Notes under the pieces: model-generated
Seen by the model: the letters and a program-made list of their open reading frames with translations, nothing else
The model's database searches: none
Told to the model about the DNA's origin: nothing
In this document: one piece after another, positions 5,735 through 64,000 of the stretch
Numbering within the stretch: position 1 is the first letter of the stretch
How the letters are laid out: the number at the start of each line of letters is the position of its first letter
Translations under genes and position numbers: made by a program
Source: Nitrospirales bacterium
GTDB lineage: Bacteria; Nitrospirota; Nitrospiria; Nitrospirales; UBA8639
DNA: 64,000 bases
Assembly (NCBI GenBank): GCA_021604145.1
Contig: BQIX01000001.1
Location: 296,343 to 360,342 of the forward strand
Direction of reading: 5' to 3'

Positions 5735-5878
5735 ATGCAGCTTTACATGAATCGATTCGCCGTGCTCACCATCGAACAATTTTTATCACCTGAACAGGAT
5801 CTGCTGACGTTTGCCACAGTTTTCGACTGGCGTGTGATGCAAAATTCCGCATCATTATCGTTTGAGGTGCAGACTTGA
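5735..5878 (+). other. Possible 47-aa small ORF with a decayed relative near 45295
   Basis: Open frame MQLYMNRFAVLTIEQFLSPEQDLLTFATVFDWRVMQNSASLSFEVQT; nucleotide similarity to 45295-45330. Confidence 0.25.
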
Positions 5879-5959
5879 TCGTGAATATCGTTAAAAATAG
5901 CAAATTACAGTCAGGTTCAAAGACGAACATATGTCGGAGGAAAGACCAATTCGTTGTCT

Positions 5960-5973
5960 GGCGCCACTCTTGC
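5960..5973 (+). promoter_or_regulatory. Weaker -24/-12-like site (TGGCGCCACTCTTGC) upstream of sodC
   Basis: GGCG-N6-TTGC with correct 12-bp GG/GC spacing; near-identical context TTGTCTGGCGYCASTYTTGCTT at 45461. Confidence 0.4.
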
Positions 5974-6090
5974 TTTTCTACACAAGAAATGGAAGTAAGT
6001 GGAAACCGTTTCCACGAAAAATGTAGACAAATCATTCCCTGATTATAAGAATGAGGGGAAAAACGTACTCATAGCTAAAAGGAGGTTGCG

Positions 6091-6684
6091 ATGGCACAAT
6101 TGCTGTCAATCAAGGGAATGCTGTTCTTCTCAGTCATTCTAGGCACAGGAGTCAGTTTGGGATGTGCTCATCACGGGCATGGCCCGTATTCAAAAGTCGC
6201 CAAAGCCACGATTAAGGGTTGTACTGATTCAAACATTACTGGAACTGCCACCCTAAAAGAACGCGAGTCGTCAGAGGGGTTGAAGCTTGTCGATATTCGG
6301 ATGGAAGTGAAGGGGCTCAAGGACGGAAAACATGCTGTCCATATTCATGAAGTTGCCAACTGCGTGCCATGCGGTGAGGCCAAAGGGCATCACGATCCTG
6401 GACCAAACTCCAATTCTGACCCTGATGCTCCTTTATTTAATCATCCCTATCATATGGGAGACTTAGTCAACATCGAAGTGAAGGACGGAGTGGGTAAAGT
6501 CCACATGGCTACCAGTCGCGTGACACTCTCAAGTGGTCGGTTGAGTGTGTTTGATGAAAATGGCAGTGCCTTCATTATTCATACAAACCCGGATTTGTAC
6601 TGTGATCAAGAGGATGAACTGAACAAAGGATGTGCCGGTGGGCCACGAGATGCGTGTGGAATCATCGAGTCGATAGAAAGTTAA
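6091..6684 (+). CDS. sodC: Cu/Zn superoxide dismutase family protein
   Basis: KHAVHIHEVANC...HHDPGPN...HPYHMGDLVNI...GSAFIIHTNPD...CGII arrangement. Confidence 0.75.
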   Translation: MAQLLSIKGMLFFSVILGTGVSLGCAHHGHGPYSKVAKATIKGCTDSNITGTATLKERESSEGLKLVDIRMEVKGLKDGKHAVHIHEVANCVPCGEAKGHHDPGPNSNSDPDAPLFNHPYHMGDLVNIEVKDGVGKVHMATSRVTLSSGRLSVFDENGSAFIIHTNPDLYCDQEDELNKGCAGGPRDACGIIESIES

Positions 6685-19272: not shown

Positions 19273-19333
19273 GCGTTTAGTTGAGTACGCCAATTGCATT
19301 TGAACAACCTGCTTGTACTTGTTTCTCTCTGTT

Positions 19334-19374
19334 GCTTTTTGCACCATCCCTGAAAACCCGTTCTGTAGAAAAAC
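19334..19374 (+). promoter_or_regulatory. Conserved 41-bp upstream element, copy A
   Basis: GCTTTTTGCACCATCCCTGAAAACCCGTTCTGTAGAAAAAC; 32/41 gapless identity to 47205-47245. Confidence 0.5.
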
Positions 19375-19463
19375 GACTCTTTTATCAATGCATCTCCTCA
19401 TTATCTAGGCTAAGAACCCCTATTTTCATTGATTTCCTGTTTCTTAGGAGTCTTCAATAAAAA

Positions 19464-19477
19464 GGCAAGGTCTTTGC
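19464..19477 (+). promoter_or_regulatory. Putative sigma-54 promoter GGCAAGGTCTTTGC
   Basis: GGCA-N6-TTGC, 12-bp GG/GC spacing; 14-bp site differs by one base from 47331-47344. Confidence 0.6.
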
Positions 19478-19720
19478 TGTGCAAGGACAAGAGGGTTCAT
19501 CTTGAGGATTGTGCTGAGAGCATTGGAGTAGAGACGAGGAGGACCTTCTGCGACCTGTTGAAAGCTTCAATATGAAATGGATTTTCAGTAACGTGCAAGG
19601 ACATAATCTATAAGACAATTTGTGATACAGTCTCAATTACGTAGAGAACAAAGATTTCACATTAGGCGAAACGTGTGAGGAATACGCCTTCAATTCAACT
19701 ACCTTGAAAGGAGTCTGTGG

Positions 19721-20659
19721 ATGAAAGTCCTGTTGGCATTGGAAAAAACTCGGGCCTCAGTCGGCGCTATTCGGATACTCAAGAAATTATTCCTTCCTAA
19801 AGGATCCAATCTTTTTCTTCTGCATGTGCACGCCATTCCTCAAAAGATCACGGGACTAGCGAAAGAACGGATTTTAAAACTATCAAAGCATGTGGAAAAT
19901 ATTCAAAAAGAAGAGCTTGAGCAGGCGCATCAGTTTCTGAGTAAGACCGAGAACACGTTAAGACATCAGGATGTGCGTGTTCAATCTCTTGTAAAAAAGG
20001 GCTTTCCGGGAGAGGAAATATTAAAGCTCATTCGAACGAAAGGTATTGATCTCGTGGTCCTTGGAACACGAAACTATTCCAAAGTGACCGGGTTTTTGAT
20101 CGGCAGCGTGAGTCAATGGGTGCTACAGGAATCGCCATGTTCTGTATTGATCGCCAGGAATCATCCACGAAAAAACTTGAATGATCGAAAAATAAAGCTG
20201 CTATTGGCTACGGATGGGTCACTGGACGCCCAGGCGGCCATCGACTTTGTGAACGCGGTGGAATTACCGTCTTCTTCGCAAATCACCGTACTTCATGTCA
20301 TGCAAAAACAGGTGTATGAGACGGAATTGGCGTTGCGAATGAGCAGAAAGGATGAAGAGGAATTTGCCAGATTAGCCGAAGAACTCTTTAAGGCACGAGG
20401 ACGAGAAGGGGCGAAATTGCTGAAAGAGACTCGAACGGCACTATCTTTACCTGATCTTCATATTGATGAACAGTTGGTCTATGGCAATGCAGCGGCTGAA
20501 ATTCTTAAATCCGCTCGAAATATGCAAGCAGATCTTATTGTGTTGGGTTCGCGTGGGTTATCGGGAGTCAAACAGATGTTCTTAGGCAGTGTGTCGAACA
20601 AGGTTGTGCACCGTGCCGGATGTTCGGTAGCCGTCATTCGTCACCAACACAAGAAGTGA
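19721..20659 (+). CDS. Tandem universal stress protein
   Basis: Two UspA domains; LVVLGTRNYSKVTGFLIGSVSQWVLQESPCSVLIAR and LIVLGSRGLSGVKQMFLGSVSNKVVHRAGCSVAVIR. Confidence 0.9.
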   Translation: MKVLLALEKTRASVGAIRILKKLFLPKGSNLFLLHVHAIPQKITGLAKERILKLSKHVENIQKEELEQAHQFLSKTENTLRHQDVRVQSLVKKGFPGEEILKLIRTKGIDLVVLGTRNYSKVTGFLIGSVSQWVLQESPCSVLIARNHPRKNLNDRKIKLLLATDGSLDAQAAIDFVNAVELPSSSQITVLHVMQKQVYETELALRMSRKDEEEFARLAEELFKARGREGAKLLKETRTALSLPDLHIDEQLVYGNAAAEILKSARNMQADLIVLGSRGLSGVKQMFLGSVSNKVVHRAGCSVAVIRHQHKK

Positions 20660-21016
20660 TTTTTGGAAATCATGGAACAAAAGATTGTTAGGTCATTTGA
20701 ATCAAGAAGTCGTGATGCCGTTCAGCTGTTACCAAAGGTAGGCTCTTCAGCATTGAAGGTTGTGACACGATCGACCGCATGACACGAGTTATGAAGAAAC
20801 TCGAAATTTTCTGTAAATCCGCAATCTCTCAGGTCATGAACAACTTGGGTCATATTGTATAATAGTGAAAGTTGGTGGTTCTCACCCTTACATCTACGTT
20901 AGAGCTACTGCTCTGTATTATCATAATGGTCATATAACTCTTTTATTGTTTTTCGAATCCATCTGCAAGCTCGGATTGGAATGAAAAGACGAGAGAACAC
21001 AAAGGGCCATATCTCG

Positions 21017-21376
21017 TTAGTCGAGCAAACGATTGACCGTATCCAACAGTTCCGACATGCGCACCGGTTTCCCAAGAAACGCATCCACTCCCTGTTGCAA
21101 GACTTTTACTCTGGTTGCCTCATCGTTTAAGGATGTGAGCACCACAATCCGGCAGGTTCAACACTTCTCGCGAAGTGCTCGAAGAAATTCGAGTCCCCCG
21201 GCAGGCATGCGAAAGTCAGAAACGACGTCATCCGGCTTGCTTTGATCGATTTGAGCTAATGCGTCATTGCCGTTTACGGCCTGTATCACCTGAAAGCCGA
21301 CCTCTTGGAGTTCAAGGAGCCGGAGCATTTCCTCGTCATCTTCCACCAATAGAATTTTGTACCCGAGATTCTCAGG
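21017..21376 (-). pseudogene. Frameshifted response regulator receiver domain
   Basis: ILLVEDDEEMLRLLELQEVGFQVIQAVNG...VVSDFRMPAGGLEFLRALREKC then, in another frame, RIVVLTSLNDEATRVKVLQQGVDAFLGKPVRMSELLDTVNRLLD*. Confidence 0.8.
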
Positions 21377-22514
21377 ATTATCGGATGAATCATTGGGGTC
21401 GTCCTTGCGTATTTGGGACGGTTACCAGATTTCAGATTTTTCCCACAAATCTAGAACAGAAAGATAGGCAACATGCATGCCTTAAAGCATAGGCTTGTTT
21501 CGTGAACAACTTGGAAAATTTATTGTAAATAAAAAAAGTTCGGTAGGATTATGAAGTATTTGTGCGTATCCGGCTCATTTGTCCACAACAATATTTTTTT
21601 AAGATGGGGAATTTCTCCCCTGTATTTTTCGTGATAACTTCCAACATAGAAAGCATGATCTCTCAACTTGCGTTCAGTTCAGCGTCTGAGACCAGTCACA
21701 TTTATTGGGATTTCACTCGTCTATGCGTGATTTATGCTGGGAATAGGAGAATATGTCCGAGTTCGTGAAGCGATGATGCAAAATTTAATAAACCATGACC
21801 ATCCACTGGAAATGCAAATTTCGAGCGAGAACGTCAAGCGCATAAAACATGTCAGCAATTCTTCCCTACATCACTCGTTAGAAAAAGCGCTCCTCTCTGA
21901 ATCGTGAGTGACAGGAATATATTTCCGTTCAGTCGGTGCCTTCGCGCATCGCTAATCATTCCACCATCATCCATGATGTGCTCTTCCACCATTCAAATTA
22001 AAGCGGTTTGATAGTTCGAGCATTGCTTTTCGTCATGATACTCTTTATCCCATAGTCGTTTGTCCTACAGGCACCAGTTTCATTCAAAAAACTAAAAGCC
22101 CTCATTTCCTTTGCCTTAATCTATTTGTAAAACAATTCTTTAGCTAACTCATTTTCGTAAAGAACATATCTTTTTTAAATTCGTTTTCTATTACAAAGAA
22201 TCGACGTTCAAAATCACCATATCTCGAAGAGTATGATGGCTTTGAAGAAACAATAATTTCATGGAATATGAGGCATTTCGCAACAATATCGTATGAGGCT
22301 ATTGGGGTCAAAAAACCACATTTAGAATTCTTTGAAAAGTTTCTATGTTCGGAAGCATTGAAAACTTCTCACATTTTTCGATGGCATTACTCTTGATAAA
22401 TGAAAATACAGAATGAAAAGAAAATAGGAAAACTAAGACATCGGTACAACAACCGATTTCTTCTGTTTCCATTGCATTCCACAACAGGAACCTTACTCAT
22501 AAACAGGAGATCAC

Positions 22515-44714: not shown

Positions 44715-45460
44715 TTCGAACCCCCTTTGTAAAGTTTGAGTTTTTGAATATGCCATTTTCCTCTTACTTGCCTTGCCCGCATCACTCGTGGACTATAGCG
44801 GACGAATCAGTAGTGCTTGATCCTAAGATGACTTGAGCCGTTAATATATGTATTTAATGTTTTTCCAATTTGTGGCGCATCTTCATGCTACGAGTAGGGG
44901 AGAAGGCAGTTTTCGCTTGCTCTAACGAAAGTCATTATGCCGCATGGGTTCGAGTTTGATAATTCAACTTGACTGAGTGAGATCGAACTATATTGTTTAC
45001 TTTTCTTGCAACCAACGTACCGTTTTATCCAACCTTAGAAGTTCTCAAAGGAAAAAAAGCCACAATACCACAGCCCTTTCTTTTCACTATGAGAAAGAGC
45101 GTTTCGGATATTGTGCTTTGACCTTTACTGGAGAGAAATCGTATGCAATGTATGAAGCGAAAAGTACGCATGGGTTGGTCTCATTTCCCTTCAATTAGTG
45201 GGTGGATGGGTGCAAAGAATTCTAATGGCTAGATAGTGGAGTTTCACATCTCCCCGAGCGCACTGAATTCACATGTGAGCGTTGCGCCACGTACAAGATC
45301 TGGTGACTTTTGCAACAAAGCCATACTGAGCGGTGGTCTCATAATTCCACAGTTCGTTTGCGGATACATAGGGTTCAAGGTAAATGTGGTGTGATCAGGG
45401 ATGTCGTGGGGGAAGTGTTAAGAACAAACTTTAACGTTGGGGGGGCCTGAACTGTTGTCT

Positions 45461-45474
45461 GGCGTCAGTTTTGC
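45461..45474 (+). promoter_or_regulatory. Weaker -24/-12-like site (TGGCGTCAGTTTTGC)
   Basis: GGCG-N6-TTGC; same flanks as 5960-5973. Confidence 0.35.
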
Positions 45475-45526
45475 TTCGCTAGGATAAAGCGGTAGCTCAG
45501 GGATTCAACGTAGACGAAGGTATGAC

Positions 45527-47056: not shown

Positions 47057-47204
47057 CAAATTTTGAAACTCAATAACCTTAATTCCAAGTTCCGAAAATT
47101 TGAACGGTTGCTCAGTTCTTATGAATATTCTGTGCCAATCCTCTAGTTAAAATTTGATCTGTGAGTTGGACCTGTGTGCTGATGATATCCATCTATGATT
47201 TGAC

Positions 47205-47245
47205 GCTTTTTGCGCCACCGCTGAAAAACATCGCTGTAGAAAAAA
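47205..47245 (+). promoter_or_regulatory. Conserved 41-bp upstream element, copy B
   Basis: GCTTTTTGCGCCACCGCTGAAAAACATCGCTGTAGAAAAAA; 32/41 identity to 19334-19374. Confidence 0.5.
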
Positions 47246-47330
47246 TTCCCCTGAAGTTAGACCTCTTGTCTTTACCTCGAGATCTTCTGTTTTCAAGTTC
47301 TCTTTTTGTTTATAGTCACTCGTGAGGAAC

Positions 47331-47344
47331 GGCAAGGCCTTTGC
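47331..47344 (+). promoter_or_regulatory. Putative sigma-54 promoter GGCAAGGCCTTTGC
   Basis: GGCA-N6-TTGC; about 90 nt upstream of cytochrome gene. Confidence 0.6.
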
Positions 47345-47430
47345 TATCCATTGAATAAATGTCGGCCTTGGTGTTAGCTGTCTTCTTATTATACGATTTG
47401 CGAGTTATTCATCAGTGAATGAGGTACCAT

Positions 47431-47772
47431 ATGAAGATTGCTATGATATTGTTCATTGGATTCCTGCTTGTCATGTGTGTATTTCCGGCAAATACAATTG
47501 CAGAAGAGAGAGATTTCAACAAGGGGAAAAAACTCTATCTGAAATATTGTGAGAAGTGTCATGGGCAAGAAGGTAAGGGAGATGGGTATACGCTCTTTAA
47601 TCCGCCCGTTGCAGATCTCACTTCCCCAGAAATTCAAAAGAAAACTGATGCAGAATTGTGGCACGGCGTTCACGAGGGCATACCGAATACGGCAATGGGA
47701 ACGTGGAGGTTTGTGTTGTCGGATGAGGAAATCAACAGTGTCCTTGCCTTTCTGAGATCCTTTGGCCACTGA
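47431..47772 (+). CDS. c-type cytochrome
   Basis: Signal peptide MKIAMILFIGFLLVMCVFPANTIA; CEKCHGQEGKGDGYTLFNPPVADLTSPE. Confidence 0.85.
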   Translation: MKIAMILFIGFLLVMCVFPANTIAEERDFNKGKKLYLKYCEKCHGQEGKGDGYTLFNPPVADLTSPEIQKKTDAELWHGVHEGIPNTAMGTWRFVLSDEEINSVLAFLRSFGH

Positions 47773-47804
47773 ATTACGACGAGTGATAAAAAAGTGAGGG
47801 ATTT

Positions 47805-48809
47805 ATGCCCCATTTGACCATGGGAAAATGTAAGAGAAATAGGAAAAGATTGCAGACGTTTGGTTCAGGATTCGTTTTTGTTGTCATTGTTACCCTTATT
47901 CCGGGTGTTGGATGGGCGAAAGAAGGAGAGTGGTTCTCATCAACGTCTGCACGACACGTTGATTGTCGCTATGCTGACACGTCCGACGATGTGAGGACTT
48001 CAGAGAGCGATGAATTTCATAGCGTGGGCTTGCCGGATGACGACGTCTTCCGTCCTCTTCTGGCCGCTCCAAAGGAACCAAGGTTTTTCGGAGCTTATCA
48101 ACGTGTGCGATATAGGGAGGCCGGTGAGTCTTTGAATGTTGGCTTCATTACCGCCGGGGGTACATTTGGGTTATGGGGCCATCGACATAAAACAAACTGT
48201 GATGGACTGCAGTTTAATCTCTTTGGTGCCATATTTTCTCAGTTTAATCTGGATGGAGACTCAACCGATCTTATCAATTCTGATTTTCAGGTTGGCTTTC
48301 CTCTCACATGGCGTCGTGGACCATTTTCCACACGTGTGCGAGTGTATCATCAAAGCAGCCATGTCGGAGATGAGTTCCTACTGAGAAATCCTGACTTCAA
48401 GAGGGTGAACCTTGGTTTTGAAGCCGTGGATGCCATTGTCTCATTCGATTCACACTGGTGGAGGGTTTATGGAGGGGGAAGCTATCTCGTCCGTCGGTCT
48501 CCGGCGCTTGATCGAGGCCTAGTCCATTGGGGCCTGGAATTGCGAGATACTCCAGAACCTTCGCCCATTTTGGGCCAGCTTATGAGAGAGGTTTACTTTG
48601 CGCCAGTATTGGGAGCCGATTTCCAGTCAGTCGAAGAATTCGGCTGGAATGTGAATACGAGCATCTTGGGTGGTCTTGAGTGGTCGCGCATGGGCAGTAC
48701 CCGCCGGTATCGGCTTCTTCTGAGTTACTATCGCGGCCATAATCCTTTCGGACAATTCTTCGATCAGAAGATCGAGACCTATGGCATAGGTTTCTATATT
48801 GAGATTTGA
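47805..48809 (+). CDS. DUF1207-like outer-membrane/exported protein
   Basis: DDVFRPLLAAPKEPRFFGAYQRVRY; LINSDFQVGFPLTWRRGPFSTRVRVYHQSSHVGDEFLLR. Confidence 0.7.
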   Translation: MPHLTMGKCKRNRKRLQTFGSGFVFVVIVTLIPGVGWAKEGEWFSSTSARHVDCRYADTSDDVRTSESDEFHSVGLPDDDVFRPLLAAPKEPRFFGAYQRVRYREAGESLNVGFITAGGTFGLWGHRHKTNCDGLQFNLFGAIFSQFNLDGDSTDLINSDFQVGFPLTWRRGPFSTRVRVYHQSSHVGDEFLLRNPDFKRVNLGFEAVDAIVSFDSHWWRVYGGGSYLVRRSPALDRGLVHWGLELRDTPEPSPILGQLMREVYFAPVLGADFQSVEEFGWNVNTSILGGLEWSRMGSTRRYRLLLSYYRGHNPFGQFFDQKIETYGIGFYIEI

Positions 48810-49586: not shown

Positions 49587-51134
49587 ATGAAAATGAAAAA
49601 ATTACTGAGCGCTATCGTTATGTGTCTACTATCCGGTGCCTGTGTCGCAGTTGGCCCAGACTATGCGCCGCCTGAACCAAAGGCACCGGAAGCATTTAGT
49701 AGTGAGCTAACAGGTGGGCTCAGTGCGGATCCGCTAGACAATGAAATGCTGAGTCAATGGTGGTCGACGTTGAACGATCCTGAACTCACGAGTCTCATCG
49801 ACCGTGCCATTGCTGGTAGTCTGGATCTTCGCAAGGCTGCCTCACGCATACTCGAAGCTCGCGCCGAGCGGGGCATCAGTGAAGCGGATCGCTTTCCAAC
49901 CATTGACGCGACTGGAGGAGTCTCGCAAAAACGTTTCCGATTTGGCACAAATCAGGACAACGTGTTGGCTGCCACGACGCCGCTTTATGAGGGAGGCTTT
50001 GATGCCACCTGGGAGCTTGATCTCTTTGGCCGTCTTCAACGCCAGGTAGAAGCCTCCGCGGCGGAACTCGAGGCGAGTGAAGAAGACTATCGGGATGTCT
50101 TGGTCACTCTCTTAGCGGAGGTCGCGCTCAACTATGTAGAAGTACGGTCGTTTCAAACACGGGTGGCCGTAGCCGAAGCGAACCGTGACGCACAAGCCAG
50201 GACACTTGAACTGGTACAGGCCAACTTCGAGGGAGGAGAAGTGTCTCGGCTCGATGTCGAGCAGGCCCGGTCCAATCTGGAATCTACACGTTCGCAAATT
50301 CCTACCTTAGAGACATCTCTTGCGCAGGCCAAGCATCGTTTGGCCGTCCTGCTTGGCCAACCTCCAGGTTCACTCGATGAAGAGCTTCACAAGCCTACGC
50401 AAGTACCTCTGGCCCCACCGAGTGTGGCGATTGGGGTGCCCGCTAACGTCATGCGGCGAAGACCTGATGTTCGCCGTGCCGAACGGGAACTTGCTGCCCA
50501 GACCGCTCAGATTGGTGTGGCGACAGCTGATCTCTATCCGAAGTTCACGCTGATCGGATCAATAGGATTAGAGTCGTTTAGTGCGAGCGACTTTTTTATG
50601 CCGACGAGCCGTGTGTTTAGCATCGGCCCCTCCGTGCAATGGAACATCTTTGATGCGGGTCGTATCCGTCTTAACATCGAGGTCCAAAACGCCAGGCAAG
50701 AACAAGCACTCATCGCCTATGAAGCCGCTGTGCTGAATGCCCTACAGGATGTCGAAGATTTGCTGGTCGCCTATGGGAAGGAGATGAACCGTCGCCAATC
50801 GTTGGTGGAGGCAGAACATGCTATACGACGGACCGTCGAGATATCACAAGACCAATATCGCGCGGGAGAGAGTGACTTTCTCACGGTCTTAGATGCACAG
50901 CGCTCCTTACTCAGCATCCAAGATCAATTGGCGGAAAGTGACAGTCAAGTCACGACAAACGTGATCAGCCTGTACAAGGCGCTCGGCGGGGGATGGGAGA
51001 ACTTGGACCCAGTATCAAGCCGCAAGCTACCCATCGCAGGGTCCGGTGACAACCAGATCGAGAATGGTCGGAGTGGACACACTACAAACGGGCGAAACGG
51101 AGTTGATCGAATACCCACACGAAGCGAAAAGTAG
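49587..51134 (+). CDS. RND/NodT-family outer membrane efflux lipoprotein
   Basis: Lipobox LLSGACVAVGPDYAPPEPKAPEAF; ASWELDLFGRLQRQVEAS-type motif; MRRRPDVRRAERELAAQTAQIGVATADLYPKFTLIGSIGL. Confidence 0.9.
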   Translation: MKMKKLLSAIVMCLLSGACVAVGPDYAPPEPKAPEAFSSELTGGLSADPLDNEMLSQWWSTLNDPELTSLIDRAIAGSLDLRKAASRILEARAERGISEADRFPTIDATGGVSQKRFRFGTNQDNVLAATTPLYEGGFDATWELDLFGRLQRQVEASAAELEASEEDYRDVLVTLLAEVALNYVEVRSFQTRVAVAEANRDAQARTLELVQANFEGGEVSRLDVEQARSNLESTRSQIPTLETSLAQAKHRLAVLLGQPPGSLDEELHKPTQVPLAPPSVAIGVPANVMRRRPDVRRAERELAAQTAQIGVATADLYPKFTLIGSIGLESFSASDFFMPTSRVFSIGPSVQWNIFDAGRIRLNIEVQNARQEQALIAYEAAVLNALQDVEDLLVAYGKEMNRRQSLVEAEHAIRRTVEISQDQYRAGESDFLTVLDAQRSLLSIQDQLAESDSQVTTNVISLYKALGGGWENLDPVSSRKLPIAGSGDNQIENGRSGHTTNGRNGVDRIPTRSEK

Positions 51135-51153
51135 ATTCGGAGGAGAACCTTCT

Positions 51154-52155
51154 ATGGGAGGAAACATCGTACGGCAAGTGATACTTGGAGCCATCATCGT
51201 GGCGGGACTCGCTGGCGGTTGGCAATGGTGGCAGAGTCAGCAGCAATCCCCACTGCCTGAGGGGATCGTGTTTGGCAACGGCAGGATTGAAGCTGATCAG
51301 GTCGACATTTCACCGAAATATGCTGGGCGTGTGCAGAAAATCCTGGTACATGAAGGTGACTTGGTTCAACCTAAGCAGGTGATAGCTAAAATGGATACAG
51401 CAGAGCTTGACGCGGAGATTGACCAAGCCAAGGCCCAACTAGCCGAAGCTGAAGCCGCGGTCAAGCAGGCTGAAGCTGAAATTGTGCAACGCCAAAGTGA
51501 ACTCACACTAGCAAAGCAGGAATTGACCAGAGCCCTGCCTCTTGTCCGGAGGGGCTCTCTTTCGAAGCGGACACTCGATCAACGCCAAAGCCGGCGGGAC
51601 ACGGCCGTAGCAGCGGTGAACGCGGCAAAAGCAAATCTTGTCACGCAACGCCGAACCGTTGATGCGGCACGTGCGGCGGTAAACAGAATTCAGACGCAGC
51701 TTGATGATGCTCTCCTGAAGACTCCGGTAGTGGGGCGTGTTCTCTACCGACTGGCTCAGGAGGGCGAAGTTCTGGCCGCAGGAGGTAAGGTCTTGACTAT
51801 TGTGGATCTGAGCGAGGTGTACATGGAAATCTTCTTGCCTTCACGGGCAGCGACCCGGGTCTCCATCGGTGCTGCTGGGCGGATCGTCCCCGACGCTGCA
51901 GCATCTCAATTTGCAATTCCGGCTACAGTCAGGTTTGTTGCGCCGGAAGCACAGTTTACACCTAAGCAGGTCGAGACTTTGAGCGAGCGAGAAAAACTCA
52001 TGTTTCGTGTCAAGGTCAAGATACCGCAAGAGCTGGTCATCAAGCACATTGAAAAAGTCAAAACCGGAATGCGGGGAGTAGCCTATGTGCGACTCGATGA
52101 CAAGGTAGCCTGGCCTGAATTTCTCGAGAAGCGTTATCCGGGCGATCCGAAATGA
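51154..52155 (+). CDS. HlyD-family periplasmic adaptor
   Basis: Single N-terminal TM; GNGRIEADQVDISPKYAGRVQKILVHEGDLV; coiled coil; GRVLYRLAQEGEVLAAGGKVLTIVDLSEVYMEIFLP. Confidence 0.9.
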   Translation: MGGNIVRQVILGAIIVAGLAGGWQWWQSQQQSPLPEGIVFGNGRIEADQVDISPKYAGRVQKILVHEGDLVQPKQVIAKMDTAELDAEIDQAKAQLAEAEAAVKQAEAEIVQRQSELTLAKQELTRALPLVRRGSLSKRTLDQRQSRRDTAVAAVNAAKANLVTQRRTVDAARAAVNRIQTQLDDALLKTPVVGRVLYRLAQEGEVLAAGGKVLTIVDLSEVYMEIFLPSRAATRVSIGAAGRIVPDAAASQFAIPATVRFVAPEAQFTPKQVETLSEREKLMFRVKVKIPQELVIKHIEKVKTGMRGVAYVRLDDKVAWPEFLEKRYPGDPK

Positions 52156-52156
52156 A

Positions 52157-54928
52157 GTGTGTGCCATGACCAACACGAGCGGCATTATCGCGAACGTCAC
52201 TGGCGTCACGCATCTCTATAGGAAGACGCGCGCGCTTGATGATGTGACGGCGGAGATTCCGTCGGGCCGTATGGTCGGACTCCTCGGTCCCGACGGGGTC
52301 GGCAAATCGACGTTGTTAGGCCTAATCGCGGGCGCACGCAAAATCCAAGTCGGAACCATCCATGTGCTTGGTGGTGATATGGCCAACGATCGACATCGCA
52401 ATGCCACCTGTCCGCGCATTGCCTATATGCCGCAAGGGCTCGGGAAAAATCTCTATGCAGAGCTGAGTGTCTTTGAGAATTTGGATTTTTTTGGTCGACT
52501 GTTCGGCCAATCGGCAGACGAACGTCACGAACGTATCGGCACGTTATTGAATGCAACCGGACTGGCCCCCTTTCCCGACCGACCGACCGGCAAGCTCTCA
52601 GGAGGGATGAAGCAAAAGGTTGGGCTGTGCTGCGCCCTCATCCATGACCCGGACTTCCTTATTCTGGATGAGCCGACTACTGGCGTCGATCCTCTCTCAC
52701 GCCGACAGTTCTGGACCCTGATCGACAGCATCCGAGCAGAGCGCACGGGTATGAGTGTCCTTGTGTCAACGGCCTATATGGACGAGGCTGAGCGATTTGA
52801 TTGGCTCATCGCCATGGATGCTGGAAAAGTCTTAGCGACAGGCTCACCGGACGTGCTGAAGGCACGGACCAATTCGAAAAGTCTGGAGGAGACGTTCGTC
52901 GCACTCTTGCCCAAGGACAAACGCGGAAGCCAGCACAAACTGACGATTCCGCCTCGAAAGGAAGCCGATGGTGAGCTAGCCATCCTCGCTAAAGGCCTCA
53001 CTCGGCGTTTTGGCAATTTCACGGCGGTCAACAATGTCAGCTTCTCGATTAAGCGTGGGGAAATCTTTGGCTTTCTGGGCTCAAACGGCTGTGGAAAAAC
53101 CACCACGATGAAGATGCTGACGGGGCTTCTTCCTGCCTCTGAAGGCGAGGCATCGTTGTTCGGGAAACCCGTTGAAGCGAGCAATCTCGAAACCCGGAAA
53201 CGTGTTGGCTACATGTCGCAGTCTTTTTCGCTCTATGGCGAGTTAACTGTACGACAAAATCTTGTTCTTCACGCACGCCTCTTTCATCTTCCGCGAGAGA
53301 AGATGGGAAGCAGGATCGACGAGCTCATTAACCGCTTCAGACTCGCTGAGCATATTGACCAACTAGCCGACCAATTGCCGCTCGGCGTGCGCCAGCGGCT
53401 CTCGCTAGCTGTCGCGCTCATCCACCAGCCAGAGATGCTGATCCTCGACGAGCCCACTTCTGGTGTCGACCCTGTGGCGCGAGATGAATTCTGGAAATAC
53501 TTGATCGATATTTCACGTAGCCAGAATGTCACAATCTTCATCTCTACCCATTTCATGAATGAGGCCATGCGCTGTGATCGTATCTCCCTTATGCATGCGG
53601 GTAGGGTGCTGGCCTGCGATACCCCGCAAGCCCTGCAGGTCGCTCGTGGTGTGGCAAGCCTCGAGGAAGCGTTCATTGGCCACATTGAGGAAGCAGTTGG
53701 CCGAACGATAGAAAGCGTGAAAGAGACTCCTAAAAGCCAAGTCGTAGAGCAACCCATTTCCAAAGACGTTGTCGCAGAAGTTTCTCGTGAGAGGACGCCT
53801 GTAAGTGTTTATCGCCTCCTAGCCTACAGCTATAACGAGTCGCTCCAGGTGATGAGAGATCCGATACGATTGGCCTTTGCGTTCATCGGCTCAGCGCTTC
53901 TTATGTTGATCTTTTGCTTCGGAATTACCACCGATACCGAACATGTGCGATATGCGGCTCTTGATCTTGACCAGACGCCGGAGAGCCGATCGTACTTGCG
54001 CACTCTTGCGGGCTCTCCCCGGTATTTCGTCGAGCAGACGCCGCTCCGCTCTCAAGCAGAGATACTTGAGCGACTGAAGGCAAACGACATCTCATTCGCG
54101 GTCGAGATTCCCCCGCACTTCGGTCGGGATCTCAAGCGGGGGAGCTCGCCGGAAGTGTCCGCCTGGATTGACGGAGCCATGCCGTTCCGGGGAGAGACCA
54201 TTCAAGGGTATGTGGAAGGGATGCACTCGACGTATCTCGAGGACCTCGCCCGAGAACAATCCAGTACGGAGCCGGAAACTCTCGCGGCTGATATCGAGAC
54301 CCGTTATCGCTACAATCCAAGCTTCGAGAGCATCTATGCCATGGGGCCGACCATTCCGACCATTCTTCTCATCATGATTCCGGCCATCCTCGTGGCGGTC
54401 AGCGTGGCTCGCGACAAGGAGCTTGGCTCCATCACCAATTTCTATGTGACCCCCACTACTCGGCTCGAGTTTCTGCTCGGTAAGCAACTTCCTTACATCG
54501 CGATTGCGATGCTGAACTTCGGGCTCCTGACCCTCATCGCGATCGTCGTATTTCATGTGCCTCTCAAAGGTAGCGCTCTTGCGCTGACGTTCGGAGCACT
54601 TCTTTATGTGACAGCGACAACAGGACTTGGCCTTCTGATGTCAACCTTTACGTCAAGCCAAGGCGCGGCTGTTTTCGCGACCATGATCGTGGCCATGATG
54701 ACGTCGATGCAATTCTCGGGCATGTTTCAACCGGTGTCCACGCTGAATGGGGGTGCCAAGTTCCTTGGCTCTTTGTGGCCGGCAACCTACTACATGCACA
54801 TCAGTGTCGGGGCATTCACGAAGGCCCTCGATGCAAGCGATTTGTGGCTTAATTTCCTAGCCCTCGCGGCGTTCATTCCGGTGTTCACGCTCTTAAGCGC
54901 TGTGGCCCTCAGGAAACAGGACCGTTAG
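52157..54928 (+). CDS. RbbA-like ABC transporter: two ATP-binding domains fused to ABC-2 permease
   Basis: Two Walker A motifs GPDGVGKST and GSNGCGKTT, two LILDEPT(T/S)GVDP motifs, C-terminal TM domain VARDKELGSITNFYVTPTTRLEFLLGKQLP. Confidence 0.9.
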   Translation: MCAMTNTSGIIANVTGVTHLYRKTRALDDVTAEIPSGRMVGLLGPDGVGKSTLLGLIAGARKIQVGTIHVLGGDMANDRHRNATCPRIAYMPQGLGKNLYAELSVFENLDFFGRLFGQSADERHERIGTLLNATGLAPFPDRPTGKLSGGMKQKVGLCCALIHDPDFLILDEPTTGVDPLSRRQFWTLIDSIRAERTGMSVLVSTAYMDEAERFDWLIAMDAGKVLATGSPDVLKARTNSKSLEETFVALLPKDKRGSQHKLTIPPRKEADGELAILAKGLTRRFGNFTAVNNVSFSIKRGEIFGFLGSNGCGKTTTMKMLTGLLPASEGEASLFGKPVEASNLETRKRVGYMSQSFSLYGELTVRQNLVLHARLFHLPREKMGSRIDELINRFRLAEHIDQLADQLPLGVRQRLSLAVALIHQPEMLILDEPTSGVDPVARDEFWKYLIDISRSQNVTIFISTHFMNEAMRCDRISLMHAGRVLACDTPQALQVARGVASLEEAFIGHIEEAVGRTIESVKETPKSQVVEQPISKDVVAEVSRERTPVSVYRLLAYSYNESLQVMRDPIRLAFAFIGSALLMLIFCFGITTDTEHVRYAALDLDQTPESRSYLRTLAGSPRYFVEQTPLRSQAEILERLKANDISFAVEIPPHFGRDLKRGSSPEVSAWIDGAMPFRGETIQGYVEGMHSTYLEDLAREQSSTEPETLAADIETRYRYNPSFESIYAMGPTIPTILLIMIPAILVAVSVARDKELGSITNFYVTPTTRLEFLLGKQLPYIAIAMLNFGLLTLIAIVVFHVPLKGSALALTFGALLYVTATTGLGLLMSTFTSSQGAAVFATMIVAMMTSMQFSGMFQPVSTLNGGAKFLGSLWPATYYMHISVGAFTKALDASDLWLNFLALAAFIPVFTLLSAVALRKQDR

Positions 54929-54930
54929 CC

Positions 54931-56055
54931 ATGAATCGACTCCAGAACATTTTTTGGCTCGGTATCAAGGAATTGCGCAGCTTTCAACGGGACCCAGTCA
55001 TCGTGGCGTTGCTCATTTTTGCCTTCACCTTCATGGTCTACACGCGAGCGACAGGATCGTCATCCGAGGTTCACCATGCCTCGATTGCTTTGGTGGACGA
55101 AGACCGATCGACTCTCTCTCGACAGATCTCTCAGGCCTTTCACCTGCCATATTTCCAGGAGCCTCAGCTGATCTCTGCCCAAGAGATTGATCCGGGCATG
55201 GACCAGGGCCAATTCATGTTTGTGCTCAACATCCCGCCACGCTTCGAGGCCGATGTGCTTGCGAATCGCCAGCCCGAGATCCAGGTGAATATTGACGCCA
55301 CTGCGCTGCTGCAGGCAGGCATTGGAGCGAGCTATATTCAGAATATTATCTCGAATGAAATCACACGTTTTAGGCAAGGTTCGGGCGAAGGGAGCAGGCG
55401 TGCGGTCGAACTGGTCACTCGGACTGCGTTTAATCCCAACAGAACGAGTTCCTGGTTCAACAGTATCCTCACCATCATCGACCAGATCACAATGTTGACG
55501 ATTATTTTGACAGGGGCGGCACTCATTCGCGAGCGTGAACATGGCACCATCGAGCATCTGTTGGTGATGCCGTTGACGTCTTTTGAGATTGCCATAGCCA
55601 AGGTTTGGTCAAACGGTCTGGTGATCCTTGTCGCTACGATTGCTTCTCTGCTGCTCGTGGTGGAGGGGGTTTTGTCGGTCCCGATCGTTGGCTCTAAGAT
55701 GCTCTTTCTTCTCGGGACGACACTCTACCTTTTTTTCGCCACGGCCCTGGGCATCTTTTTAGGGACGATTGCACGTTCCATGGCTCAATTCGCGCTGCTC
55801 ATCGTCCTCGTGATCATGACGTTGAATATGCTTTCAGGTGAGAACACCCCTGTGGAAAGTCAGCCTGATTGGCTGCAGAATATCACGTTGTTCCTTCCGT
55901 CGCGCCACTTTGTGAGCTTTGCCCAGGCCATCATCTATCGCGGCGCTGGACTAGACATCGTCTGGTCTGAATTTGTCGCTGTCACGGTATTAGGTCTCGT
56001 CTTCTTCATATTCAGTCTTGGACTCTTTCGCCGTTCGATTGCCCTGAGCAAATGA
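54931..56055 (+). CDS. ABC-2 type transporter permease (YhhJ-like)
   Basis: IKELRSFQRDPVIVALLIFAFTFMVYT; REREHGTIEHLLVMPLTSFEIAIAKVW. Confidence 0.9.
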   Translation: MNRLQNIFWLGIKELRSFQRDPVIVALLIFAFTFMVYTRATGSSSEVHHASIALVDEDRSTLSRQISQAFHLPYFQEPQLISAQEIDPGMDQGQFMFVLNIPPRFEADVLANRQPEIQVNIDATALLQAGIGASYIQNIISNEITRFRQGSGEGSRRAVELVTRTAFNPNRTSSWFNSILTIIDQITMLTIILTGAALIREREHGTIEHLLVMPLTSFEIAIAKVWSNGLVILVATIASLLLVVEGVLSVPIVGSKMLFLLGTTLYLFFATALGIFLGTIARSMAQFALLIVLVIMTLNMLSGENTPVESQPDWLQNITLFLPSRHFVSFAQAIIYRGAGLDIVWSEFVAVTVLGLVFFIFSLGLFRRSIALSK

Positions 56056-56097
56056 AGGAATTCATACATTCAATAATCTAGGAAAAGGGTATATCAG

Positions 56098-58641
56098 GTG
56101 AGAGATCAAATTGACGATTCAACTATTTCGACTTATTTCTCCAAACGTTCATTGCCAAAAGGGCTCGAAGGATTGAACGAACTTGCATTGGACCTGCGCT
56201 GGACGTGGAGCCATTTCAGTGACCAACTCTGGGAGCGGCTCGATCCAGAAGCATGGGAGCGAACGGCCAATCCCTACTTTATTCTCCAAAGTGTGCGGCA
56301 AGCTCGTCTTGAAGAAGCGGCGCGTGAGGAAAACCTCAAACAGGAACTGAAAGGCTGGTTGGAGCAACGACAGGAATATCTCAAGAATCCAGGATGGTTT
56401 GGGCGAACGTATACAGAGACTGAGGTGAAGGGTATTGCATATTTCAGCATGGAGTTTGGGCTGAGTGAGGCGCTTCCGATTTACTCCGGTGGTCTTGGCA
56501 TTTTGGCCGGTGATCACCTAAAAGCGGCAAGCGACCTCGGTGTTCCAATTGTGGGTATTGGTCTTCTATACCAACAAGGCTACTTTCGACAGATTCTCAA
56601 TGCAGACGCTTGGCAACTTGAAGCGTTCCCTTATAATGATCCTATCAACCTTCCCGTCACACCGGTTCCGGATCCGGATGGGGGATGGCTACGCATTACA
56701 CTTGAGTTGCCGGGGAGAACGTTATTAGTGCGAGTGTGGCAAGCTCAGATTGGAAAAGTCATGTTGTATCTATTGGATAGTAATGATCCACTCAACAGTC
56801 CACGTGACCGCGGAATCACGGCCAATCTCTACCCCGCAGGACCGGAACAGCGTCTGATGCAAGAAATCGTCCTTGGAGTGGGAGGTTGGCGTGTTTTAGA
56901 AGAACTCGATCTTGAAATTGATGTCTGCCATCTGAATGAAGGACATGCTGCCTTTGCCATCCTCGCACGGGTAAAAAGTTTTATGACCCAAACTGGACAG
57001 TCGTTCCCAGTGGCTCTTGGTGCCACTCGGGCCGGTAACGTCTTTACCACTCATACTCCAGTCGAAGCAGGTTTTGACAGGTTTGAACCCAATCTGATTC
57101 GTCCATATGCCCAATTCTTATCAACGATGATTAATGTGTCAAAGGATCAGCTGTTTGCATTGGGCCGCCGAGATCCTGCAAACAATCAGGAGCCTTTCAG
57201 CATGGCCTACCTCGCCATACGTGGAAGTGGCTATGTAAATGGGGTCAGTTGTCTGCATGGGCATGTTAGTCGAGAGATTTTTCAACCGTTGTTCCCCCAA
57301 TGGCCAACGGCTGAAGTGCCTGTTCGATCTATTACGAATGGTGTTCATGTCCCATCGTGGGACTCTTCAGAGGCCGACGCGTTGTGGACGCGCATTTGCG
57401 GAAAATCGCGATGGTTGGGCACGCTGGAAGAATTATGTCCCCTGATCTCAAACATTCCGAATCGGGAACTTTGGGCCTTTCGCGTGGCTCAACGGCAAGC
57501 GTTGATCAACTATGTCCGACGACGTCTCGTCCGACAGCACAAGGAGCATGGCGCATCAGCGGACCACATTCAGCGTACGAAACATGTCTTGGATCCCAAT
57601 GCGCTTACACTCGGATATGCCAGACGATTCACAGCCTATAAACGTCCCACACTTTTTTTACATGATCGGAGTCGTCTTGCGAGATTATTGTCCGACTCTA
57701 TGCGACCAGTGCAACTGATTATTGCCGGCAAGGCGCATCCGAAGGATGACGAAGGTAAGCGTCTTGTGCAGATGCTCGCACAGTTTGCTTCTGATCCGCA
57801 GTTCAGCAATTGTGTCGTGTTCTTGGAGGATTACGATATGGCGTTGGCTCAGGAACTGGTGGCCGGCGTCGATGTGTGGCTGAATACGCCGCGAAGGCCT
57901 CTGGAAGCGTCTGGAACCAGCGGCATGAAAGTACTGGTCAATGGCGGACTGAACTTGTCTGTGCTCGATGGGTGGTGGGATGAAGCCTATGCACCTGAAG
58001 TCGGGTGGGCAATCGGAGAGGGAAATACCCAACATAATCTCAATCGGGATACCCTTGAGGCCGAACAGTTTTACCAGATTCTAGAGCAACAGATCATTCC
58101 TGAATTTTATAACCGCAATCAGGATGGGATTCCTCATGCCTGGACGAATAGAGTACGAGCCAGTATGTCCAGGCTCACGGCGCACTTCAGTAGCAATCGC
58201 ATGGTACGCGAGTACGTGGAGCAGACGTACATTCCCGCTGCCAAACGGTATCGTGATCGGGTAGCCAATGAAACGCAAGTCGGGAAGGAATTACAGAAAT
58301 GGCAAAAGAACATGCAAGAAACCTGGGAGACTCTCCGATTTGGGGAATTGCATGTCACGCAATATGATGATCACTATGCGTTCGATGTCCAAGTGTACAT
58401 GGGAGATATGGATTCTAGCTGGATCAGCGTGGAATTGTACGCTGACGATGAACATGGTGAAGGTGTCGTTCGAGTTACCATGAAGCAAACAGAAACGATT
58501 CCTGGAATGGTGAATGCGTATCGGTTCAAAGCTGAAGTGCCAGCGTCTCGACCCGTTGAGCACTATACTCCCCGAATCGTCCCTTGCCATCCCTCTGTGT
58601 TCATCCCATTAGAAATTTCTGACATCCTCTGGTACCGATAG
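56098..58641 (+). CDS. glgP: Alpha-glucan (glycogen) phosphorylase
   Basis: GTG start; GLGILAGDHLKAASDLGVPIVGIGLLYQQGYF; CHLNEGHAAF; EASGTSGMKVLVNGGLNLSVLDGWWDE. Confidence 0.95.
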   Translation: MRDQIDDSTISTYFSKRSLPKGLEGLNELALDLRWTWSHFSDQLWERLDPEAWERTANPYFILQSVRQARLEEAAREENLKQELKGWLEQRQEYLKNPGWFGRTYTETEVKGIAYFSMEFGLSEALPIYSGGLGILAGDHLKAASDLGVPIVGIGLLYQQGYFRQILNADAWQLEAFPYNDPINLPVTPVPDPDGGWLRITLELPGRTLLVRVWQAQIGKVMLYLLDSNDPLNSPRDRGITANLYPAGPEQRLMQEIVLGVGGWRVLEELDLEIDVCHLNEGHAAFAILARVKSFMTQTGQSFPVALGATRAGNVFTTHTPVEAGFDRFEPNLIRPYAQFLSTMINVSKDQLFALGRRDPANNQEPFSMAYLAIRGSGYVNGVSCLHGHVSREIFQPLFPQWPTAEVPVRSITNGVHVPSWDSSEADALWTRICGKSRWLGTLEELCPLISNIPNRELWAFRVAQRQALINYVRRRLVRQHKEHGASADHIQRTKHVLDPNALTLGYARRFTAYKRPTLFLHDRSRLARLLSDSMRPVQLIIAGKAHPKDDEGKRLVQMLAQFASDPQFSNCVVFLEDYDMALAQELVAGVDVWLNTPRRPLEASGTSGMKVLVNGGLNLSVLDGWWDEAYAPEVGWAIGEGNTQHNLNRDTLEAEQFYQILEQQIIPEFYNRNQDGIPHAWTNRVRASMSRLTAHFSSNRMVREYVEQTYIPAAKRYRDRVANETQVGKELQKWQKNMQETWETLRFGELHVTQYDDHYAFDVQVYMGDMDSSWISVELYADDEHGEGVVRVTMKQTETIPGMVNAYRFKAEVPASRPVEHYTPRIVPCHPSVFIPLEISDILWYR

Positions 58642-58645
58642 CCCC

Positions 58646-60166
58646 ATGAATCCCTGTGCCTTCCGTCCCTCATGCCGTCCCCATCCTCATCTCTATGAAA
58701 TCAATACCTGGGTCTGGTTGAAGGAGCTCTCACGAAAAGAAAAAAGAATGATTCGTCTTGGTGATGTGCCAGATCAAGAATGGGATGACCTTCAGAGCAA
58801 AGGGTTTGATTACATTTGGTTGATGGGTATTTGGGAGCGAAGTCCTCACAGTCGATCAATTGCACGGAGTGACCCAGGATTACAGAAAGAGTATGAACAA
58901 GCCTTACCAGACTGGACAGCCAAGGATGTTGTCGGGTCACCATATGCCATTCGTGCGTATCGTCCAGATCCAGAACTTGGCACGTGGGATCAGCTCGATC
59001 GTGTCTTGGAGAAACTTCATCAACGAGGCATGCAGCTCATTCTCGATTTTGTGCCAAACCATACGGCTGTGGATCATGAGTGGATCCAATTGCATCCAGA
59101 ATACTACATTCAAGGAACCGCGAAAAACCTTGAGGCCCCTCCAGACGAATTCTTTACAATACATGTTAACGGGAGGGCTCTGAATCTCGCTCATGGAAAA
59201 GATCCCTACTTCCCGGCTTGGACGGATACGGCTCAGTTGAATTATTTTCAAGAAGCCACTCGTACGGCCTTAATTGAAGAACTGAAAACAATCGCTCAGC
59301 ACTGTGATGGAGTTCGATGTGACATGGCGATGCTGGTGCTGAATGAAGTGTTTCAGAAGACATGGGGTGATTTTCTAGGAATAGAAGGCACTCCTGCTAT
59401 CGAATTCTGGACAGAAGCCATCACCGCGGTGTCTGATTTGGTCTGGATGGCTGAAGTGTATTGGGATCTTGAATGGGATTTACAACAGCTGGGATTCCAT
59501 TTCACGTATGACAAGAGATTGTACGATCGACTGTGCCATTTGGCTTCCGATGAGATCCTTGCTCATCTCAACGCTGATGTGAACTATCAACAACACCTTG
59601 TTCGATTCTTAGAAAATCATGATGAACCAAGAAGTGCGTCGATGTTTGGCAATGTTCGTCTTCCTGCCGCTGCTACGCTCACGGCAACCTTACCTGGTAT
59701 GCGCTTTTATCATCAGGGCCAGCTTGAAGGGAAGAAAATTCGGTTGCCGGTTCAACTCGCACGAATGAAAGAAGAACTTCTCGATCATGAAATAATGGAC
59801 CTGTATGGTCATTTGCTTCAAATTACCAATGAGAGGATCTTTCACGAAGGTCAATGGCGACTCCTTACGATGCATTCGGCAAGTGATTCTTCCTATACAA
59901 ACCTCATTGGGTATCTGTGGGAACTTCACACGTCACAAAAGATTGTCGCCGTAAATTTTGGAGCAATTGAATCACAAGGCTTTCTTGATCTCTTTGACGG
60001 CAGAGAAGCTGAAGATGGTTTTCCCTCAATCTTTTCGTATCGTGACCAATTGACTGGACACGAATACGCATTCAATTATGAAGACGTCGTTGGCCGTGGA
60101 CTGTATATTCGCCTGAAGCCTTTTGATGCTCATATCTTCTCAGTCTCTGCTCAGGAGCCCCATTAG
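58646..60166 (+). CDS. GH13 alpha-amylase family protein
   Basis: LILDFVPNHTAVDH; DGVRCDMAMLV; VWMAEVYWD; LENHDEPR catalytic regions. Confidence 0.9.
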   Translation: MNPCAFRPSCRPHPHLYEINTWVWLKELSRKEKRMIRLGDVPDQEWDDLQSKGFDYIWLMGIWERSPHSRSIARSDPGLQKEYEQALPDWTAKDVVGSPYAIRAYRPDPELGTWDQLDRVLEKLHQRGMQLILDFVPNHTAVDHEWIQLHPEYYIQGTAKNLEAPPDEFFTIHVNGRALNLAHGKDPYFPAWTDTAQLNYFQEATRTALIEELKTIAQHCDGVRCDMAMLVLNEVFQKTWGDFLGIEGTPAIEFWTEAITAVSDLVWMAEVYWDLEWDLQQLGFHFTYDKRLYDRLCHLASDEILAHLNADVNYQQHLVRFLENHDEPRSASMFGNVRLPAAATLTATLPGMRFYHQGQLEGKKIRLPVQLARMKEELLDHEIMDLYGHLLQITNERIFHEGQWRLLTMHSASDSSYTNLIGYLWELHTSQKIVAVNFGAIESQGFLDLFDGREAEDGFPSIFSYRDQLTGHEYAFNYEDVVGRGLYIRLKPFDAHIFSVSAQEPH

Positions 60167-62548: not shown

Positions 62549-62617
62549 ATTATATTCCCTTTCTTTGCATTTGCATCGATGGGCTAGTGAGCTCTGATAT
62601 TTATTAATGTATATTCG

Positions 62618-62631
62618 GCAAAAGCTGTGCC
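62618..62631 (-). promoter_or_regulatory. Putative sigma-54 promoter, minus strand TGGCACAGCTTTTGCC
   Basis: Strong match to TGGCAC-N5-TTGC with correct spacing; about 70 nt upstream of the cytochrome/Usp operon. Confidence 0.75.
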
Positions 62632-62937
62632 ATTTATGTTTTTATAAATTTTTGGCGTGATATTTTTGTGTCTCAAGGCCGATTTATATCGTAAATAATA
62701 ATGTATCCCGATTTTTCCGGGATGAATCTTTGTTAAAGGAACTGTTGCTTCATGTCACAACAGGAAACGCTCTCTGTAGCCTTTTTCAACAGTGGAGTAG
62801 CTATAAAATACTGTAATCCAAGTATATTCATGTTTTCTTCCGCTGGCATTTGACTTGCTGTCATTAATGAGAGAAGGTCGGAAATCGAGTGATATCTGAC
62901 ACTCCGTGGCTAACTGTCGGAAAGATGGAGTAGTGAC

Positions 62938-63366
62938 TTGGAAGTGAGGATTTGTCAGTCAATTACCTGTACTATACTTGTTGTCGATGACGATCCAGCA
63001 ATGAGAAGCCTGCTCGTGGATGAATTAAGTGATAACGGATGCCAGGTTACCGAGTCTTGCGATGGTCATGACGCTCTTTCTCGACTGAAGACATACTCAC
63101 CCAACCTCATCATCACTGACTTGAAAATGCCTGGAGGAGGATTTACATATCTTAAAAACGTATGCCTGCTTGTTCAAAATTGCCCTATAATCTTGATCAC
63201 GGCCTTCGGGAATTCCCAAACGAGGAAACACGCACAAGCTTGTGGAGTTGCTGCCTATTTTGATAAACCTGTTCGCGTAAACGATCTCAAGGGGGCGCTT
63301 CAACAATTTTGTCCACTCGACAAGTCTCAGACTTGTCAAAATACCGTGTTATGGGACAAGATGTGA
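62938..63366 (+). CDS. Response regulator receiver protein
   Basis: ILVVDDDPAMRSLLVDELSDNG...LIITDLKMPGGGF...ILITAFGN...AYFDKPVRVNDLKGAL; related to the remnant at 21017-21376. Confidence 0.85.
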   Translation: MEVRICQSITCTILVVDDDPAMRSLLVDELSDNGCQVTESCDGHDALSRLKTYSPNLIITDLKMPGGGFTYLKNVCLLVQNCPIILITAFGNSQTRKHAQACGVAAYFDKPVRVNDLKGALQQFCPLDKSQTCQNTVLWDKM

Positions 63367-63387: not shown

Positions 63388-64000
63388 ATGGCCGGATCGT
63401 TTCTGCAAATTCAGCCTGATGATGATTGTATTCTTTTCTCACGTCTAGAGGGGCTCACTCTTCTTGCGAATCACCTGCCCAAGCCAGTGGTCATCTTTGA
63501 TCCAACCTTGAAATTAGTGTATGCGAATGCGCATGCCCAGACATTAGCCTCATCCTGTCCACTTTTGAGTAATCTCTCCACCCCTGAATGCGACTCTGTA
63601 TCGAATTCAAAAGATTCCTGCACGACATGTGCAGCAAAAGAACTTTTTTTGTACGAGGAACCTCAATCTGCAACAGATGGAGAGACGGCCATTGTCGGGC
63701 AGAGTGATCCTTCTTGTCCCTTTCCCAATTCGTTCTCGGTACCAGGCGATGAAGGAAACACAGCCTGCGTGGTAATGATGGGAAAATGTCCTGAAGAGAG
63801 CACGGTGTGGAAAACACGACTGGAGGGTCTTTCAGCACTGAATGTCTCATCTATTCCAGACAAACAACTCAGTCACTCCTTGATTGGACGTAGTGCGTCA
63901 ATGCAGCGATTGGTCGAGATGATTGGGTTGATTTCAACCTCTGAGTCGACCGTATTAATAGAAGGCGAAAGTGGTACCGGAAAAGAATTAGTCGCGAAGA
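63388..64000 (+). CDS. Sigma-54-dependent transcriptional activator (3' truncated by window)
   Basis: Direct translation [23 protein letters not shown]...[40 protein letters not shown]; Walker A GESGTGKE of bEBPs. Confidence 0.9.

Follow-up and report, generated by a model that had tools for sequence, protein, structure and literature searches.

Two promoters in the 64,000-nucleotide stretch of DNA analysed here (the window) share a 41-bp element upstream of a sigma-54-like site, one before a universal stress protein (USP) gene and the other before a cytochrome c gene. What is this element, and which activator does it serve? The original prediction took it for an enhancer (UAS) of the bEBP encoded at 63388. 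The two copies lie where they were described, at 19334 and 47205, match without gaps at 32 of 41 positions, and their starts precede the GG of the -24 elements (19464 and 47331) by 130 and 126 bp. Pairs of 41-mers matching at 32 or more positions are expected 0.007 times across the whole window under a base-composition null, and 6e-7 times when both members must sit 100-160 bp upstream of a sigma-54-like site; the similarity is not a chance one. A pattern search of the window with 3 mismatches allowed gave 2 matches against 0 expected, and the genome-wide search proposed with the prediction recovered, in 4.77 Mb, only 19334 and 47205 at up to 3 mismatches (control 0). The outcome that would have spoken against an enhancer, a generic repeat without -24/-12 sites downstream, did not occur, as the two copies in this genome both precede such a site. 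A genome of the same genus (G004) contains a third copy, with 2 mismatches, whose distance to the GG of CGGCAAGACACTTGCT is about 131 bp; it is followed by cytochrome c and DUF1207 genes and stands 4.7 kb upstream of that genome's bEBP gene. Matches in the family outside the genus have three mismatches each. An Rfam search of the window gave no match, and thus no known RNA element there.

Each 41-mer consists of two 19-bp dyads in opposite orientation with starts 34 bp apart, their consensus being STGTRG-AAAAAAT-CCACAS (in general form STGTRG-N7-CYACAS, with an A-tract at the centre). The right half of the 41-mer (CTGTAGAAAAAATTCCCC at 47234) corresponds to a dyad, STGTRGAAAAAATCCACAS, conserved in another genus (g10, see below), and the left half is the same motif on the opposite strand (ATGGTGCAAAAAGCAACAG at 19329), hence two opposed dyads. 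At the USP promoter, dyad 1 occupies 19329-19347 on the minus strand (CTGTTGCTTTTTGCACCAT, -135 from the GG) and dyad 2 occupies 19363-19381 on the plus strand (CTGTAGAAAAACGACTCTT, -101), 34 bp after the start of dyad 1, with the sigma-54-like -24/-12 site at 19463-19478 (+, AGGCAAGGTCTTTGCT). At the cytochrome c promoter the corresponding features are dyad 1 at 47200-47218 (-, TTGACGCTTTTTGCGCCAC, -131), dyad 2 at 47234-47252 (+, CTGTAGAAAAAATTCCCCT, -97), again 34 bp on, and the -24/-12 site at 47330-47345 (+, CGGCAAGGCCTTTGCT). The enhancer reading of the 41-mer therefore stands, but not as a single unit, since each holds two sites; the element is real and its extent needs correction, the functional unit starting 4-5 bp upstream of the 41-mer (19329-19381 and 47200-47252). 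In both cases the arrangement is that of a sigma-54 UAS, with a downstream -24/-12 site of the form GG-N10-GC (AGGCAAGGTCTTTGCT and CGGCAAGGCCTTTGCT) and paired, helically phased dyads within about 70-200 bp upstream. Half-sites alone are uninformative, as the tandem CTGTWG pattern by itself gave 39 matches over five genomes, not above its reversed control.

The candidate activator is encoded at the far end of the window. A stand-alone response-regulator (RR) receiver gene (62938-63366, +, Pfam Response_reg) is the first of its operon and is followed by the 5' part of the bEBP gene (63388-63999, +), comprising a Cys4 sensory domain and the start of the sigma-54 AAA+ domain; the gene is cut because the window ends where its contig, C1, ends. 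In most of the g10 genomes examined, a sigma-54-like site is present about 1.13 kb before the P-loop codons, that is, before the RR-bEBP operon, and the conserved 19-bp dyad STGTRGAAAAAATCCACAS lies about 90 bp upstream of that site. From these promoters we built a matrix trained only on 17 promoters of bEBP operon orthologues of g10. Scanned over the roughly 128,000 positions of the window, it ranked dyad 2 of the cytochrome c promoter (47234) first, a site in the bEBP's own promoter (62774) third and dyad 2 of the USP promoter (19363) eighth. A matrix from another genus thus finds both 41-mers together with the promoter of bEBP 63388, in support of the original prediction.

The same matrix places a box of at least 9 bits 45-190 bp upstream of 6 of the 14 sigma-54-like sites in the window (one of the six pairs, the site at 6369 (-) with a box at 6488, lies inside a SOD gene and is probably spurious), while random placement gave a mean of 0.25 and a maximum of 4 in 5000 trials. 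As promoters are AT-rich and the motif contains an A-tract, the test was repeated with column-permuted matrices, some of which left the A-tract in place: the 6 observed compare with 0.45-0.68 (maximum 4-5 of 400) in the window, and 5 with 1.1 in the rest of contig C1 (9 with 1.13 for all of C1). A reversed matrix gave 0-1. Matrix scanning of the genome covered C1 together with some 100 kb from other contigs, and the sigma-54 score and its cut-off are home-made; a structure-free covariance model proved too insensitive for so short a motif. The permutations bear on a further explanation, namely that the dyads bind some other regulator, FNR/CRP-type or IHF- or Fis-like, which cooperates with the sigma-54 promoters. 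A-tract centres are also favoured by nucleoid proteins, which the motif would suit, and TGT-N11-ACA is a generic dyad. Permuting the outer columns while keeping the A-tract nevertheless abolishes the association with sigma-54-like sites, and a fixed tandem spacing 70-180 bp upstream, together with a site in the bEBP's own promoter, fits a bEBP best, so that we regard such a regulator as very unlikely.

The window contains further dyad sites, which the original prediction had not seen. Between the divergent promoters of the RR-bEBP operon and a cytochrome c-USP operon (62548-61316), a tandem UAS at 62742-62792 (-) is formed by dyads at 62742-62760 and 62774-62792, 32 bp apart, and is flanked by sigma-54-like sites for the former operon (62844-62859, +, TGGCATTTGACTTGCT) and for the latter (62617-62632, -, TGGCACAGCTTTTGCC). 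A second pair (45300-45318 and 45334-45352, 34 bp apart) lies upstream of a sigma-54-like site at 45460-45475, behind which are a small ORF at 45527 and a USP gene at 46100, and a third (5801-5819 and 5834-5852, 33 bp apart) lies upstream of a site at 5959-5974 and a Cu/Zn SOD gene at 6091-6684. A fourth, at 21570-21622 (-), has its dyads 34 bp apart and a sigma-54-like site at 21467-21482 (-). The gene behind this intact-looking promoter, a receiver-domain gene at 20900-21480 (-), is broken by stops. Elsewhere on C1, a site at 294665 separates a beta-lactamase-fold/rhodanese protein gene (followed by a di-haem peroxidase gene) from one for an SQR-like flavoprotein, and at 225611 a site lies between the gene for an Na+/H+ exchanger and that for a glutaredoxin-membrane protein, behind which a USP gene follows. 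The names persulfide dioxygenase and SQR reflect how we read the domain content. Behind the two 41-mers themselves, the likely targets are a USP gene with tandem Usp domains (19721-20659, +, Pfam Usp) and an operon at 47419-48809 (+) encoding a c-type cytochrome (47419-47772) and a DUF1207 protein (47805-48809).

When a second site was sought 20-60 bp from the main box with a leave-one-out matrix, the best one fell at 32-34 bp in 13 of 15 sigma-54 promoters of the genus (binomial p 1.6e-13, although some of the 15 are orthologous and so not independent) and at 22 bp in the other two, as compared with 6 of 107 strong boxes elsewhere in the window. Within the genus this tandem architecture precedes genes for USPs, c-type cytochromes, Cu/Zn SOD and sulfide detoxification as well as the RR-bEBP operon. 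A distance of about three helical turns would place both dimers on one face of the DNA, as expected for bEBPs. Judged from the sequence, this spacing and the positional linkage of box and sigma-54-like site lend further weight to the UAS reading.

Do the two 41-mers simply descend from one promoter? The DNA between element and -24/-12 site, described in the original prediction as not obviously similar, is in fact weakly but significantly alike in the two promoters (49 of 92 positions; alignment score 40 vs 20.7 +/- 6.5 in shuffles), though element and -24/-12 site are far better conserved. This residual similarity suggests that the USP and cytochrome c promoters may be old paralogues. That the 41-mers are nothing but remains of a duplicated promoter region, without special function, would account for the spacers and for the near-identical -24/-12 sites, but is contradicted by dyads at 32-34 bp before unrelated operons (SOD, SQR, RR-bEBP and other USPs), by their prediction from another genus, and by an element much better conserved than its spacer; we consider this explanation hardly credible.

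Bacterial genomes of this group hold about 30 bEBP-like candidates each at first look, and we assign the element to bEBP 63388 because its promoters carry the site. Of 50 family genomes, 30 have an orthologue of this bEBP. In the genus studied here, tandem sites at -101 to -103 and -68 to -71 of the RR-bEBP promoter are present in G000 (two copies), G003 and G004, and G001 has a weak site only, spaced differently. In g10, strong boxes hardly occur outside the bEBP promoter, lack the 34-bp partner there, and are absent from the SOD promoters, so that a wide regulon is apparent only for the genus studied here. Among the targets, a strong box of 18.5 bits precedes the SOD gene of G001, at -68 relative to a matching sigma-54-like site; glutaredoxin orthologues elsewhere have a box in one weak case only (G019). 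Might the UAS be bound by another bEBP, with bEBP 63388 as one target among others? The number of candidates leaves room for this, as does the location of the bEBP operon itself behind a sigma-54-like site, above which another activator could stand, and G019 (78% complete) has a box-like site and no match to the bEBP. Yet the site marks the promoter of this very bEBP across two genera, and it is simpler to suppose that the neighbouring activator activates its own operon. None of the 14 genomes of genus g2, all of them without the bEBP, has a close form of the box, a comparison that concerns other genera only, as the close form is unmatched in the own genus too. We therefore think a different bEBP unlikely, if worth keeping in mind.

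The protein itself has the features of a sigma-54 activator. A full-length homologue is encoded on another contig of the assembly (C172), and three further species of the genus have one as well, with a partial one in a fourth; in the full-length homologues the GAFTGA motif, the AAA+ domain and a Fis-type HTH are intact. The C172 copy is complete and 94% identical to the 63388 copy over the part present, with different flanks. As the assembly has an estimated contamination of 6.7%, C172 may derive from a close strain and not be a paralogue; the two versions may thus reflect either a strain mixture or paralogy. The closest named record to the C-terminal part, in a genome-collection search, is from the MAG Nitrospirales bacterium NPIRA01 (94%), and the best sequence match in the PDB is ZraR (1ojl). 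The N-terminal domain has no match in Pfam, neither GAF nor receiver, and a single-sequence AlphaFold prediction of this part has a pLDDT of 31.5, too low for interpretation. Of 21 aligned orthologues, 20 conserve cysteines 57, 78, 81 and 110, the 21st being truncated there, and one further conserved cysteine, at 222, lies inside the AAA+ domain.

Taken together, the 41-mers are probably tandem-dyad sigma-54 enhancers for bEBP 63388, which would activate its own operon and a stress and respiration regulon and is proposed to sense redox state. The enhancer is well supported and its activator is very likely bEBP 63388; the signal is less settled. We infer that two bEBP dimers would bind, through their Fis-type HTH, side by side on one DNA face to the two opposed dyads, 34 bp (about three helical turns) apart and 97-135 bp upstream of the -24 element. 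They would then assemble, through the GAFTGA-bearing AAA+ domain, into an active ring that remodels sigma-54 RNA polymerase at -24/-12 by DNA looping. Besides the RR-bEBP operon, the operons so activated would be those for USPs, c-type cytochromes, Cu/Zn SOD and persulfide dioxygenase/SQR-like proteins, and further those for di-haem peroxidase, glutaredoxin and an ion exchanger. The four conserved cysteines suggest that the N-terminal domain senses oxygen or redox state, by cysteine-based redox or metal sensing, with low oxygen or redox stress as the likeliest cue. An oxygen signal is suggested by the target gene content and by the proteome of Nitrospira marina (see below), tempered by the absence of the box from SOD promoters in g10.

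The closest functional analogue is NmpR of Myxococcus xanthus (NmpRSTU), an autoregulated sigma-54 activator that binds two dyads in each promoter, preferentially separated by 14-15 bp, and controls USP and other oxygen-related genes under hypoxia (PMC11841059). Here, too, there are two dyads per promoter (with a gap of 13-15 bp), the bEBP promoter carries its own site, and USPs are among the targets. The NmpR site is, however, GCGCA-N5-TGCGC (PMC11841059) in contrast to STGTRG-N7-CYACAS, the NmpR receiver is fused and fed by a phosphorelay whereas here the receiver is a separate gene, and the sensory domain here has four cysteines. Differing in site, receiver fusion and phosphorelay, this is not NmpR. 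NifA, likewise a sigma-54 activator with a TGT...ACA dyad upstream of -24/-12, recognises TGT-N10-ACA, and many of its members sense redox state through cysteines (PMC10590331). The g10 consensus has TGT-N11-ACA, no nif genes are among the targets seen, and whereas NifA has an N-terminal GAF domain and its cysteines at the AAA+ end and linker, the present bEBP has no GAF match and mainly N-terminal cysteines; with such dyad spacing and cysteine placement, identity with NifA is rejected. NtrC/ZraR-type activators share the AAA+ and Fis-type HTH architecture and paired enhancer dimer sites, but the bEBP here lacks a fused receiver, and site and regulon differ. Within the coverage of our literature search, which was incomplete, no paper described a sigma-54 enhancer-activator pair in Nitrospirales.

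At low oxygen, USPs and Cu/Zn SOD (27.9-fold) are among the proteins that rise most in N. marina, the USPs cluster with electron-transport and carbon-metabolism genes, and a regulatory role has been suggested for the UspA proteins themselves (PMC8115632). The likeness to the present regulon is at the level of the order, in USP and Cu/Zn SOD genes, and sigma-54 does not figure in the text of the paper; since the SOD promoters of g10 lack the box, we do not equate the two. As a tentative extension, which we regard as possible, the cysteine-sensing bEBP without a fused receiver could be the master activator, within its genus of marine Nitrospirales, of a low-oxygen/redox (and sulfide) survival regulon, acting through tandem dyads with a strict 32-34 bp spacing, each pair serving a single promoter or two divergent ones. 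With a defined cis-element, a proposed activator and its target operons listed, the regulon becomes testable in a relative of marine nitrite oxidisers, organisms in which universal stress proteins and the clusters associated with them increase at low oxygen (PMC8115632).

Some observations concern neighbouring genes. The window at 14240-38446 and 49587-60166 encodes ADP-forming acyl-CoA synthetase, phosphoketolase, GH65, V/A-type ATPase subunits, glycogen phosphorylase, alpha-amylase and a NorB-like oxidase, energy-salvage genes that together look like an island for survival of anoxia or starvation. In G004 (L014:5449-5597), a receiver gene and a SpoIIAA-like gene are preceded by a sigma-54-like site that itself has tandem sites 34 bp apart upstream. 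Downstream of the bEBP, genomes of the genus have a second sigma-54-like promoter, TGGCATTAAGGTTGCT-like (L028:4460(-), L029:1165, L026:18972(-), L030:10718 and L025:1031), followed by a conserved leader (TGTCGGTGAAGG...GTGATGGACCGG) and a multicopper oxidase of more than 1400 aa (Pfam Cu-oxidase_3, called on L028). At several of these loci a conserved palindrome, GTCTA-A/T-rich-TAGAC, lies about 180 bp upstream of the promoter and looks like a different enhancer. In G025, from another genus, a strong box (L175:1501) is followed after about 230 bp by a gene similar to that for this giant multicopper oxidase.
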